Shown here piece after piece: positions 2,119 through 53,723 of a stretch of 64,000 nucleotides of DNA. Below the pieces are notes generated by a model that was not told where the DNA came from, did not search any database, and saw only the letters and a list, made by a program, of their open reading frames with translations. A program made the position numbers and the translations under genes. Positions within the stretch are counted from its first letter, which is position 1. Every line of letters begins with the position of its first letter. Source of the stretch: Phormidium tenue FACHB-1050 (GTDB taxonomy: Bacteria > Cyanobacteriota > Cyanobacteriia > Pseudanabaenales > Pseudanabaenaceae); NCBI RefSeq assembly GCF_014696925.1, contig NZ_JACJQY010000014.1, positions 43,103 to 107,102 on the forward strand. The letters run 5' to 3'.

Positions 2119-2304
2119 ATGCAAAAATCGGATTATGACGAGGGCTTAACTTGGACTGCCGAAGCAAAAGTCAAGTACAAAAATATTCCCTATTTTGTGC
2201 GATCGCAAGCGCGTCAGAGAATCGAACAACTTGCTCAAGCCTCAGGTAGTGATACGATTACCGCAGAAATTGTCGAAAAAGCAAGAGTTGAGTTTGGACA
2301 GTGA
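2119..2304 (+). CDS. PCP_red-type small protein (light-independent protochlorophyllide reductase C-terminal-like domain)
   Basis: [29 protein letters not shown]...[10 protein letters not shown] pattern. Confidence 0.7.
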
Positions 2305-3236
2305 ATAGCGCAATCAATAGTGCCGTAAACAAGGCTTTGAATAATAGCGATCGCGGTTATTTGCTAACCGAACAAGCAAATCCCCACAGCCAAAATTTGG
2401 ATCGACTCAGTGCTTTAGAAATTGTCGAATTGTTTAATCAAGAAGATGCTAAAGCCGTTGCCGCAGTTGGGATCGAAAAAGAAGCGATCGCGGCCGCGAT
2501 TACGACGATTGCTGAGGCGATCTCTAATGGTGGTCGATTGTTTTATGTTGGTGCTGGTACGAGTGGTCGTCTTGGAGTCCTTGATGCAGCCGAATGTCCG
2601 CCCACTTTTTGCAGTGATCCTGAATTGATTCAAGGCATCTTGGCGGGTGGGATGAAGGCTATGGTACGTAGTTCTGAAGCTCTCGAAGATCGCGAAGATG
2701 ACGGTGCAGATGCGATCGCCGAAAGAAATATATGCGATCTCGATATTGTCTTTGGGCTTACCGCAGGCGGAACCACACCCTATGTCCACGGAGCGCTCAA
2801 GGAAGCCAAGCATCGGGGTGCAAAAACGATCTTTTTCTGTTGCGTACCGCCTGACCAATTTCCTAGCCAATACGATATCGAGATCCGTCCGTTAGTGGGA
2901 GCCGAAGTTTTAACAGGCTCAACCAGACTGAAGGCTGGGACAGCTACAAAACTCGTACTAAATACGATTTCCACGGGTGTGATGGTGCAGCTAGGTAAAG
3001 TTTATGGCAATCGGATGATCGATGTCGCTGTCACCAATAGCAAACTCGAAGATCGCGCCATTCGGATTATTCGCGATCTCACATCAAGCAGTCGTGAGGA
3101 TGCCGCCCAATTGCTAGAGCGATCGGGTAAGCGGGTGAAATTAGCTTTGTTAATGCATTGGAAAAATTTAGATATGGCTACTGCCGAGAAATTATTGCAA
3201 GATGCTCAAGGTCATTTGGGTAAAGCCATGATGTAG
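2301..3236 (+). CDS. murQ: N-acetylmuramic acid 6-phosphate etherase
   Basis: [51 protein letters not shown] start overlapping the previous stop. Confidence 0.95.
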
Positions 3237-3269
3237 GTTGTTTTTATAGCTATAGCCACCTGTATCAGG

Positions 3270-3306
3270 ATAGTGTGAGGCGGCGCTTCGCGCCGCCTCA
3301 CACTAT
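3270..3306. repeat. Perfect GGCGGCG-core hairpin
   Basis: ATAGTGTGAGGCGGCG-CTTCG-CGCCGCCTCACACTAT. Confidence 0.95.
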
Positions 3307-3368
3307 TTGGATTTTATATCCTAACAAGAATGGCGATAGCTATAAAACCCTTACTGGCTTTAGGTTCT

Positions 3369-3402
3369 AATTCACATAAGTGTGCCGACACTTCTGTGAA
3401 TT
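3369..3402. repeat. 15-bp-arm hairpin of AATTCACAAAAGTGT type (1 mismatch)
   Basis: AATTCACATAAGTGT-GCCG-ACACTTCTGTGAATT. Confidence 0.88.
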
Positions 3403-3415
3403 GGTATAAGATGTT

Positions 3416-3436
3416 TTACAGCGCAAAGCGCTGTAA
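3416..3436. repeat. Short perfect leader hairpin
   Basis: TTACAGCGC-AAA-GCGCTGTAA, 19 nt before ATG 3456. Confidence 0.9.
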
Positions 3437-3455
3437 GCAAAAAAATGTAGAAACT

Positions 3456-3770
3456 ATGACAGGCGCAGAACTTCGTCAGGCGATCGCCAACAAATGGGAC
3501 TATTCCTATGACGTACAATTACGCAAAACACAGGGTAAAATTTTCTTGCAAGTAATGTGGCGTTATCAAGAGCAGCAATCCTTTTCGATGAACGAAGCCG
3601 AATTTATACAACATCTGGATACGATCGCCTCCTATCTCAGTGATTGGGGCGTAGTCGAGCAAGTCCAAAAATTTATTGAAATCACCAAGGAACGCCCCCG
3701 ACTCGGTAAAGCGGTAAGCATTCCTCTGCAAATCGGTGAGCGATCGCTAGAGTGGCTCATTGGAAGTTAA
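3456..3770 (+). CDS. DUF3067-like conserved cyanobacterial protein
   Basis: MTGAELRQAIANKWDYSYDVQLRKTQGKIFLQVMWRYQEQ...; the ORF-track start at 3330 reads through a hairpin repeat, so ATG 3456 is preferred. Confidence 0.75.
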   Translation: MTGAELRQAIANKWDYSYDVQLRKTQGKIFLQVMWRYQEQQSFSMNEAEFIQHLDTIASYLSDWGVVEQVQKFIEITKERPRLGKAVSIPLQIGERSLEWLIGS

Positions 3771-3808
3771 TCATTTAAGAGCACAAAATGACGTAGCCAT
3801 TTCAAAAT

Positions 3809-3853
3809 CCAAGAATCGAGTGGCGGCGCGAAGCGCCGCCACTCGATTCTTGG
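3809..3853. repeat. Perfect 21-bp-arm GGCGGCGC-core hairpin
   Basis: CCAAGAATCGAGTGGCGGCGC-GAA-GCGCCGCCACTCGATTCTTGG. Confidence 0.96.
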
Positions 3854-4001
3854 GTTTTATGTCCTAACAAGAATGGCGACAGCTATAAAACCCTTATTGG
3901 GTTCGGTTTTTAATTCACAAAAGTGTGGCATCACTTTCGTGAATTGTGTAAATGGTAAGTAAACAAATGCTAATTAGATTAGATGAACGTAATTAATTAC
4001 A

Positions 4002-4056
4002 AACCCAAACCCATAAAGTTGCGCCCCTGCGGGGCGCAACTTTATGGGTTTGGGTT
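4002..4056. repeat. Perfect 26-bp-arm hairpin
   Basis: AACCCAAACCCATAAAGTTGCGCCCC-TGC-GGGGCGCAACTTTATGGGTTTGGGTT. Confidence 0.96.
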
Positions 4057-4248
4057 ATTTATTTGGGACAAGTGCTTATACAAAGTTAATAAAATCAATA
4101 AAAGTATGGAGTGTTGCTGACTTTCTAAGCTAAAGATTGTACGATTGTGTTGGAATACTTTTGATAATCTTAAATTTCTAAAAAATTTCATTTTATTTCG
4201 CTACGTCGCTCTAACCATACCTAAGTCTAAAAACGTCAGGGCAAAAAT

Positions 4249-7029
4249 ATGAGTCAAGCAGGAGCTAACCCATGGGATCGCCAATTTGTTAACCTTGGGC
4301 GAATCATGCAGTTCTTGCGTGATGAAGACAGTATTGACAACCTATTGAATGCAACCCTCGATTATCTTCGAGACAATTTCGAGTACAAATTGCTTTGGAT
4401 TGGGTTGTATGACGCAGAAAACCACCGTCTTACAGGTAAAGGTGGTACAACTCCTGCTGGTGAAATCAAATTCTTAAAAGAGAGATTTAATCTTAATGCA
4501 GGTGATCTGCTTGATCAGGTGATTTTGCAACGTAAGCCAGTCCCGATCGCCGATCTGCGTCAAGAGAAACGTAGTGGCGAATGGCAAAAATTAGCCCAAA
4601 AATTTGATATTCAAGGCACATTACTTTGGCCGATCTACCATCGCGATCGCAGCTTTGGCGTAGTCCTCTTAGGCTCAAACCTATGGAATGTCACCCCACG
4701 TAATGAAGAAAGAGCCAGACTATCGGTTGTTCTTGGTACTCTTGGTTCTACCCTCAGCCGTCTTGATGACGAATGGCGTTATCACAATGCTAAACGTCCT
4801 GACGAGCCATTACTACAAATCCTCTCAAAAATCCGTAATATTCCTGCACTCAACGAACGCCTTGAAGAGATTGTGCAGGAAACCCATAGCTTTGTGATGC
4901 CCGATCACACCAGCATCTATTGGTTTGAACGCGAACACCAATATTTCTGGCGACGAGTTGTCAATCGTCAACCAGGTCCTAAATCTAAGCAAGCTGTTGA
5001 CAATACGGCGGGAGTAACTGTCCAAAATGCTCCTACCCTGTATCAAGCACTATCTAAAGATCAGGTAGTAGTGGTAGTTGATGCCAAATCTATGACCAAA
5101 GGCGAAGTAAGCAATCGGGTCATGGAACAGTTTGGGGCAGTTTCGATTATTATTGCGCCGATATTTTTTCAATCCGAACTTTTAGGCTTTTTGTCAGTAG
5201 AAGGTGATGAACCACGACTATGGACAGATGATGAGCGTAATTTTGTGCGCGGTGCGGCTCAACTAGCTGCCATTACTGCACCCCTAGAAGAAATGGAAGT
5301 AACTCTTGACCGCATTGCTTCCGATCAAATTCTCACCGCAGGGATTGCGAGGGCTATCTATTCAGATAATGATTGGCAGAGTGCGCTCGATCAAGCTGCG
5401 GAGCAGCTATGTCAACGTCTAGGGCTAGAACGCTTTTGGGTGGCTACCTATGACAAAGACAATGATGTATTTAAGATTGATTTTCAGTATCATCCTAAAA
5501 ATCGCCGCCCACTTCCCACGATTTTACCAGGATTAGCCCCTGTGGATGTGCAGATGATGGAGCAGTCTCCCGATGCAGCAACCGTCGAGAATCTGGATAG
5601 CGATTTTAAATTTCTCTCATGGCGAACTCCCTTACTTGATCTAGATGTGCGATCGATGATTGTCAGTAGTACCTCAATGGGGAAATCCCTCGAAGGTATT
5701 CTTGCCGTGGCTCACGAAGCACCACGTACATGGTCACGTCCAGAAAGAGAAATGGTGCAAGCAGTTGCTCAACAGATTGGACTAATTGTTCACCAAAATG
5801 AATTACAACGCTTGTCCGATGAACGGCAAAAGTCTCATCAGGCTGTTCAGTTTGGTCTAGTTGCCCTCCAACAAAGCAACGCTCTTGAGAAACTGCACCA
5901 TACAGCCACACAGTTAATGGCTCAGGTTACACAATCACCTCTGGCTGTACTAGTAGTATGGCTCCCCGGTCGGCAAGGTGGACAAATCGCCTCAGTATTT
6001 GCCAGTCGAGACGAATATCAACTTTCTATTAGCGAAACTCTAATCGCGATCGAAGAAGATCCGCTAGCTCAATGGGCGATCCAAAGTGAGGGAATTCTGC
6101 CTCTGAGTATTCATGATTTACCAGAACAGACTAAAGCTTGGCTGAATGCCCCGGCCCTTGGTCACCTGATGTTAACTGCATTACGGACAACTCCTGATCA
6201 CCAACCCACAGGCATGATTTTGGTGGCTGATCGCGTGGGACGACGCTGGGTCGATCGCCAATTGCAAGCATTTAACATGTTGGCAAATCAGCTAGCATGG
6301 TCACGTCGCCATCTCTTACTAGTTGATCATCTCAAGCATAATCGTCAAGAATTGGAACGACTCAACTGGTACAAACATCGTCGTTTGGAAGATATCTATC
6401 GCACTGTTAGTTCGGGAGTGCAGCGTTTGTTAGATACTGATGCTCGCGCCAATGGCACTGGAGGCATTAACAACATTACGCTGCAAAGTTCTCTCAAGCA
6501 ATTGCAGGGTTCTCTATCACCACTCCCCCAAATTATCCGCAAGGAACAATGGCGCTTGCGTCCCAACTATGAGACTGCTCCCCTTGCAGGTATGCTCAAA
6601 CGAGCTTTAGAGCGCGTTGATTCGTTGGTAAAACAACGTCAGATTTGGTCGCAGGTGCATAACCAAGCCAATGTGGTGGTGGGTGGCGACATCGCTAAGA
6701 TGGAGATGATTTTAAATGAGTTGTTGTTGTTTGCCTGTGGGCGATCGGAAGTTGGTGGTCGCATCGATCTCTGGTGTCGTCAGATTGACGAAAAGCTTTT
6801 AGAACTATCAATTACTGACTACGGTGTGGTTGATGCGTCTTTACTGCAAGAGCTGCATCAAGGTCGAGCGATCGATCCGCTATCACCTTCGTTGCTAGAT
6901 CAACCCCCTGGGTTACATCTAGCGATTTGTCAAAGTCTCATGCTTGAAGCAGGTGGTGAGTTATCACTCTATCAACTAGAAGATAATCGCATTCTCAGCC
7001 GCCTTATCTTGCCCCTCTCTAGCTCCTAA
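4249..7029 (+). CDS. Multi-GAF domain sensor protein with degenerate histidine kinase-like C-terminus
   Basis: Several GAF-like segments (LLWIGLYDAENHRLTGKGG; GFLSVEGDEPRLWTDDERNFV; AQQIGLIVHQ) and a C-terminal ATPase-like region. Confidence 0.75.
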   Translation: MSQAGANPWDRQFVNLGRIMQFLRDEDSIDNLLNATLDYLRDNFEYKLLWIGLYDAENHRLTGKGGTTPAGEIKFLKERFNLNAGDLLDQVILQRKPVPIADLRQEKRSGEWQKLAQKFDIQGTLLWPIYHRDRSFGVVLLGSNLWNVTPRNEERARLSVVLGTLGSTLSRLDDEWRYHNAKRPDEPLLQILSKIRNIPALNERLEEIVQETHSFVMPDHTSIYWFEREHQYFWRRVVNRQPGPKSKQAVDNTAGVTVQNAPTLYQALSKDQVVVVVDAKSMTKGEVSNRVMEQFGAVSIIIAPIFFQSELLGFLSVEGDEPRLWTDDERNFVRGAAQLAAITAPLEEMEVTLDRIASDQILTAGIARAIYSDNDWQSALDQAAEQLCQRLGLERFWVATYDKDNDVFKIDFQYHPKNRRPLPTILPGLAPVDVQMMEQSPDAATVENLDSDFKFLSWRTPLLDLDVRSMIVSSTSMGKSLEGILAVAHEAPRTWSRPEREMVQAVAQQIGLIVHQNELQRLSDERQKSHQAVQFGLVALQQSNALEKLHHTATQLMAQVTQSPLAVLVVWLPGRQGGQIASVFASRDEYQLSISETLIAIEEDPLAQWAIQSEGILPLSIHDLPEQTKAWLNAPALGHLMLTALRTTPDHQPTGMILVADRVGRRWVDRQLQAFNMLANQLAWSRRHLLLVDHLKHNRQELERLNWYKHRRLEDIYRTVSSGVQRLLDTDARANGTGGINNITLQSSLKQLQGSLSPLPQIIRKEQWRLRPNYETAPLAGMLKRALERVDSLVKQRQIWSQVHNQANVVVGGDIAKMEMILNELLLFACGRSEVGGRIDLWCRQIDEKLLELSITDYGVVDASLLQELHQGRAIDPLSPSLLDQPPGLHLAICQSLMLEAGGELSLYQLEDNRILSRLILPLSSS

Positions 7030-7031
7030 CT

Positions 7032-7086
7032 AAAGCCCAAGAATCTAGTGGCGGCGCTTCGCGCCGCCACTAGATTCTTGGGCTTT
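7032..7086. repeat. Perfect 26-bp-arm GGCGGCGC-core hairpin
   Basis: AAAGCCCAAGAATCTAGTGGCGGCGC-TTC-GCGCCGCCACTAGATTCTTGGGCTTT. Confidence 0.96.
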
Positions 7087-7567
7087 GGTTTGTACTAGCT
7101 AACTCTTTTGGCTCAATAAGTGTTTCGGGGAGGTAAAGAAAGGTAGAAATTGATAATATTGTAGCGAAATCCAGAAGCAGCGATCACTATGCTGAGTGTG
7201 AACTTAACCCATCTAGTTGATGATGAAAAATGTTACGAAACAGTTCGTCAGATGAGATGGACAGGAGGAGTAAGCTGTCCAAAATGTAAAAGTACAGAGG
7301 TAATCAAGCGAGGCAAAGGGGTTTACACTGACGAATATGCTATCTACAACCCTTTACAAGCTTGGGGCTATGCTCACAAAACTGTTTGTCATGGGGTAGG
7401 CGAATATGCTAGAGATGAAGATGGTGATGGCTTTTGTGAAGTTCATGTCAATACAATGGAAGGCTTTTGGTCGCTTTTACGCTCTTGGTTACGACCTCAT
7501 CGTGGTATTTCTCAAGAAAAGTTACCTTTGTATTTGAGCTTCTTTGAGTTTGTTCACAATGCCAAGA

Positions 7568-10823: not shown

Positions 10824-10901
10824 AGATCCCCCTCAATCCCCCTTATAAAGGGGGAATAATTTAAATTCTCCCCCCTTTATAAGGGGGGCTGGGGGGGATC
10901 T
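10824..10901. repeat. Intergenic copy of the AGATCCCCC...AAGGGGG dispersed repeat
   Basis: AGATCCCCCTCAATCCCCCTTATAAAGGGGG...CCCCCCTTTATAAGGGGGGCTGGGGGGGATCT. Confidence 0.85.
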
Positions 10902-12928: not shown

Positions 12929-12983
12929 AAAACCCAAGAATCGAGTGGTGGTGCGAAGCACCGCCACTCGATTCTTGGGTTTT
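12929..12983. repeat. 26-bp-arm GGCGGCGC-type hairpin (1 mismatch)
   Basis: AAAACCCAAGAATCGAGTGGTGGTGC-GAA-GCACCGCCACTCGATTCTTGGGTTTT. Confidence 0.95.
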
Positions 12984-23397: not shown

Positions 23398-23400
23398 TCT

Positions 23401-23435
23401 CAACACACAAAATGGCGCAGCCATTTTATGTGTTG
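23401..23435. repeat. 16-bp-arm hairpin (1 mismatch)
   Basis: CAACACACAAAATGGC-GCA-GCCATTTTATGTGTTG. Confidence 0.92.
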
Positions 23436-23538
23436 AAAACCCTTACTAAATTTGGTTCTTATCTCAAAAGGTAGGCAGCGCTTTGCGCCGCCTACCTTTA
23501 TTTAGGCGTTAATATACCTGACACACTAAAGCTCTAAG

Positions 23539-42217: not shown

Positions 42218-42302
42218 AAATTACTTGAAATGTCCACTAATACCGATTCACGAAAGAGTGGTCACACTTTCGTGAATTATATCTGTCGCCATTCTTGTTA
42301 GA

Positions 42303-42345
42303 CAAATAATGTGAGGCGGCGCTTCGCGCCGCCTCACATTATTTG
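42303..42345. repeat. Perfect 20-bp-arm GGCGGCGC hairpin
   Basis: CAAATAATGTGAGGCGGCGC-TTC-GCGCCGCCTCACATTATTTG. Confidence 0.96.
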
Positions 42346-42391
42346 GGTTTTTATTTGTCCTGATACAGGTGTCTATAGCTATAAAAACCAA

Positions 42392-51842: not shown

Positions 51843-51849
51843 TTTATAC

Positions 51850-51884
51850 CAACACACAAAACGGCTAAGTCGTTTTGTGTGTTG
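51850..51884. repeat. Hairpin immediately after tRNA-Arg
   Basis: CAACACACAAAACG-GCTAAGT-CGTTTTGTGTGTTG. Confidence 0.93.
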
Positions 51885-51909
51885 AAAACCCTTACTGGGT
51901 TAAGTCTTT

Positions 51910-51943
51910 AATTAACAAAAGTGTGACAACACTTTTGTTAATT
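51910..51943. repeat. Perfect AATTAACAAAAGTGT-type hairpin
   Basis: AATTAACAAAAGTGT-GACA-ACACTTTTGTTAATT. Confidence 0.94.
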
Positions 51944-52002
51944 GCTATTAAATATGTAGATATGCGGCGCTTTGCAACGCATATCTAATCTGGATTTTAA
52001 AA

Positions 52003-53668: not shown

Positions 53669-53723
53669 AAAACCCAAAAGATGAGTGGCGGCGCAAAGCG
53701 CCGCCACTCATCTTTTGGATTTT
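53669..53723. repeat. 26-bp-arm GGCGGCGC hairpin (1 mismatch)
   Basis: AAAACCCAAAAGATGAGTGGCGGCGC-AAA-GCGCCGCCACTCATCTTTTGGATTTT. Confidence 0.95.

Follow-up and report, generated by a model that had tools for sequence, protein, structure and literature searches.

Repeat elements in the window

The window, by which we mean the whole stretch of 64,000 nucleotides of Phormidium tenue FACHB-1050 analysed here, has its first repeat copies among three genes, which encode a MurQ-like SIS-domain protein (2301-3236), a DUF3067 protein (3456-3770) and a GAF-domain protein (4249-7029). The MurQ is 94% identical to that of Pseudanabaena sp. SR411, the best named neighbour, and the same comparison places the window in Pseudanabaena. 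Hairpins are abundant: 30 with a stem of at least 16 and a loop of 3-5 were counted in the window, whereas five sequences from a first-order Markov model contained no such hairpin. A C-rich 39-bp inverted repeat at 10824-10901 has no recognisable relation to the two repeat families described below, elements A and B (Table 1).

Table 1. Copies and parts of elements A and B located in the window.
Feature	Position	Strand	Remarks
Element A copy 1, both TA included	3245..3344	+	100 bp; lacks ~16 bp left of the hairpin; site empty in SR411
Central hairpin of A copy 1	3270..3306	+	17-bp arms, loop TTC
Right part of B: linker plus right hairpin, end TTGGTATAA	3345..3409	+	common to SR411
Fragment of the B left hairpin, preceding A copy 2	3779..3803	+	from comparison with other B copies
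Element A copy 2, without left end	3804..3887	+	hairpin 3804-3858, loop GAA; right TA 3886-3887
Right part of B, following A copy 2	3888..3949	+	from sequence
Element A copy 3	42278..42383	-	106 bp, both TA included
Element B right hairpin adjoining A copy 3	42238..42277	-	from sequence
Element B left hairpin and linker	23400..23465	+	right half differs; A absent
Element B, complete copy	51847..51950	+	A absent

An earlier note had placed these hairpins within one larger, MITE-like mobile element. Mobility is upheld by the ends, the TA duplication and a transposase gene with such ends, but the single element resolves into two nested MITE families. All three A copies in the window adjoin or lie in B, and it is for this reason that the copies share an order resembling one larger unit. 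The stretch common to 3307-3402 and 3854-3945 is real, but joins the right-hand portion of A to the beginning of B. On the opposite strand at 42235-42390, A again stands next to B, but at a different TA of B; AAACCCTTA comes after A copies 1 and 2 (3245 and 3804), and ATTCAC after copy 3 (42278). The repeats at 23436 and 51885 are akin to the rest through element B, but not through A.

Two families and their insertion sites

The sequence conservation extends beyond the stems, as had been claimed. The stem-free core CTAACAAGAATGGCGAYAGC has three matches in the window (two on the plus strand, one on the minus strand) against 0.02 expected, and this right end of element A has 155 matches in the whole genome against one for a reversed-pattern control. 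Likewise, the linker between the two hairpins of element B has 155 matches in the genome against none for its control, and the flank matches thus stay above chance when the stems are masked. Element A measures 116 bp, with imperfect terminal inverted repeats of about 28 bp flanking a perfectly paired 26-bp hairpin whose loop is 3 nt long (consensus TATAGCTATAGCCACCTGTATCAGGACAAATCAAAACCCAAATAGTGTGAGGCGGCGCGAAGCGCCGCCTCACACTATTTGGGTTTTATGTCCTAACAAGAATGGCGACAGCTATA). Element B, which runs from TTATACCAAA to TTGGTATAA, is a separate element, since it has its own 155 linkers and its own ends, and is present in SR411 without A.

Copies elsewhere in the genome were examined in 52 stretches around the listed matches to the right-end pattern or the consensus, a sampling by which copies lacking the A right end are under-represented. 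Among 106 distinct right ends read, 62 belonged to copies of exactly 116 bp and 85 to copies with both ends, the latter a slight overcount, with very symmetric copies (e.g., L237, L273, L276) read on both strands; merging these left 82 sites. Very short, present in many copies and without coding capacity, element A is a new family of an already known kind, the MITEs. The sole match in an Rfam search was a tRNA, with no family for the hairpins; the exact A right end was not found in viral contigs, and no paper naming Pseudanabaena together with MITE and insertion sequence was found in the literature searched. Element A is present in 24 of 25 other Pseudanabaena genomes and in none of 32 genomes outside the genus, and is thus restricted to Pseudanabaena among the genomes sampled.

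The site of the copy at 3245-3344 is empty in SR411, where B is present and one TA stands in place of the two in the window: the joint GTGTTTTTAAAACCC in SR411 corresponds to GTTGTTTT-TA-element-TA-AAACCC. The TA is likewise duplicated at two further orthologous sites (L014/L281 and L046/L280), which brings the clean orthologous empty sites to only three in total. At the sites of L022 and L039, SR411 holds a different hairpin element in the same intergenic place (L282 and L284, respectively), and no clean orthologous joint was found for L003, L004 and L030. Furthermore, when A plus one TA is removed from four copies nested in B, a single B match spans the joint, over its full length in L043, L054 and L266 and over most of it in L279. 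Some similarity to B lies within 70 bp of 23 A copies. Element A has often inserted inside an older element of the second family, and its target, TA, duplicated at the three empty sites and in the four nested copies, is that of the IS630/Tc1-mariner group, for which ISY100 offers a precedent (PMC2170065).

Covariation and loop inversion in the hairpin core

Across the 26 pairs of the core in the 62 full-size copies, 31 cells are changed on both sides and yet paired, compared with 22 other changed cells. In 1000 shuffles over the 52 distinct sequences the mean number of such doubles was 2.1 and the maximum 8, and sliding the partner gave 2-3. Common descent inflates these cell counts; less affected by it is the spread of the compensated changes over 13 pair positions. 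The loops read GAA in 30 of the 62 copies, TTC in 27, TTT in three and AAA in two, and seven copies that are identical outside the loop comprise four with TTC and three with GAA. In a second Pseudanabaena genome, 18 of 20 copies have a perfect stem of 24-26 bp and two have no such stem; the loops there are TTC (10), GAA (5), TTT (2) and AAA (1).

Template switching during replication yields both arm homogenisation and spacer inversion (PMC8604942), and the pattern in element A makes it most likely that switching between the arms has kept them paired and inverted the loop. The two processes are alike down to the change from GAA to TTC, although the documented cases concern yeast genes and RNA genes (PMC8794818, PMC8604942), whereas for A, a multi-copy mobile element, we infer the process. 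Could the arms of a MITE instead covary through selection on a structured RNA or DNA? In its favour, covariation by itself fails to separate the two, and variation in the stems is about as great as in the ends. The near-equal numbers of GAA and TTC, and their occurrence among otherwise identical copies, are nevertheless what spacer inversion gives, and Rfam offers no matching family. We therefore consider selection on structure an unlikely, though serious, explanation.

A-like cores also occur inside other ends, at 12929-12983, 53669-53723 and 7024-7094 (e.g., ..GTCCTAAGCAAAACTTGCTTTGCTATA). Those at 12929 and 53669 suggest, without proving, that hairpin cores are common to several families. 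That the core is an exchangeable cassette common to MITE families with different ends, kept perfect and repeatedly inverted by template switching, is a further step, which we advance tentatively and think rather improbable.

Proposed mobilisation in trans and its alternatives

The copy number, the ends, the TA duplication, the nesting in B and the degenerate transposase gene that has similar ends in a congener together indicate that element A is a non-autonomous MITE of the IS630/Tc1-mariner type, inserting at TA and most likely mobilised in trans, a reading to which we assign a probability of about 0.9. The transposase gene is absent from A, and the domains PF13358 (DDE_3) and PF01710 are found only in the putative source element. 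The best PF13358 match in the genus sample, L169 (E 4e-39), ends in an A-type terminal repeat, and its protein has its stop codon within the reverse complement of TATAGCTGTCGCCAAGTGTATTAGGACG. In L217, both A-type repeats are present and bound an element 953 bp long; its reading frame is disrupted, and the upstream frame encodes a PF01710 protein. This IS630-type element (L217:1475-2427) seems to interrupt another transposase-like gene. The IS630-family transposase with near-identical ends is thus represented in a congener only by fragments or a frame-disrupted copy. Several bases differ between the ends of A and those of the insertion sequence, more so at the left end. The matching transposase was absent from the own genome in a search at E 1e-20, and an intact copy was found nowhere searched.

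Among other candidates, none of the eight own-genome loci encoding PF13358 proteins has A ends, and the matching end of L176 belongs to a neighbouring hairpin element. A parallel case is offered by the end CTATAGCAATCCTAAATGAGTTGT, which occurs at 62 places in the genome and also bounds a resident IS630-family insertion sequence (L034, G000:C67:150142-151237) with its transposase split over two reading frames: small hairpin elements and an insertion sequence here have common ends in the same genome. The insertion sequence in L032 is followed by TTTTGTGATTTGGTATAA, which by eye resembles a B end.

Under the favoured reading, a transposase of the IS630 family, provided in trans, would recognise the imperfect terminal repeats of A, excise the element and insert it at a TA, which would be duplicated; template switching between the arms at replication would keep the core paired and flip the loop. 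Movement by an IS630/Tc1-mariner transposase is the most likely course, and its assignment to this transposase is our inference.

The hairpins might otherwise be intrinsic terminators kept by selection between genes, and their strong stems and T-rich tails fit this, as do nine terminator-like sites in 3200-4260, compared with 0.9 in shuffles. Their placement argues against it. Of the 82 A sites, 31 lie between co-directional, 23 between convergent and 22 between divergent genes, with three in an open reading frame and three without a neighbour, counts from crude, mechanical gene calls of which we use only the absence of a convergent excess over divergent. The intergenic gaps of the window itself number 24 co-directional, six convergent and six divergent. 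Such a frequency between divergent genes is unexpected for terminators, in agreement with the earlier note, which had argued against convergent ones, and the conserved ends and TA duplications would be left unexplained. We judge this account very improbable, but the sequences of the hairpins do resemble terminators and may incidentally affect transcription. Palindromes of the REP/REPIN kind, mobilised by a RAYT (Y1) transposase, would likewise be short, mostly extragenic and numerous, but the TA duplication and the ends in common with a DDE-type IS630 gene leave this with hardly any credibility.

Small dispersed repeats of cyanobacteria are, by description, short, hairpin-bearing and mobile, as element A is. 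ISY100 and the IS630-Tc1-mariner group share with A the duplicated TA target, short imperfect terminal repeats and a cyanobacterial host, a likeness that rests on traits other than the end sequences, and differ from it in carrying a transposase gene (PMC2170065). Prokaryotic MITEs, under which Nezha of cyanobacteria is listed, are similarly small and non-coding, with terminal inverted repeats, a location mostly outside open reading frames and a transcript that would fold strongly, whereas A has a perfect hairpin core with its loop in both orientations and is confined to one genus in our sample (PMC10969869).

Our findings account for a large class of Pseudanabaena hairpins as mobile DNA. The copies of element A form a natural multi-copy data set on arm correction and loop inversion in perfect palindromes and, if the core is indeed an exchangeable cassette, they would be a record of switching events in a bacterial genome.
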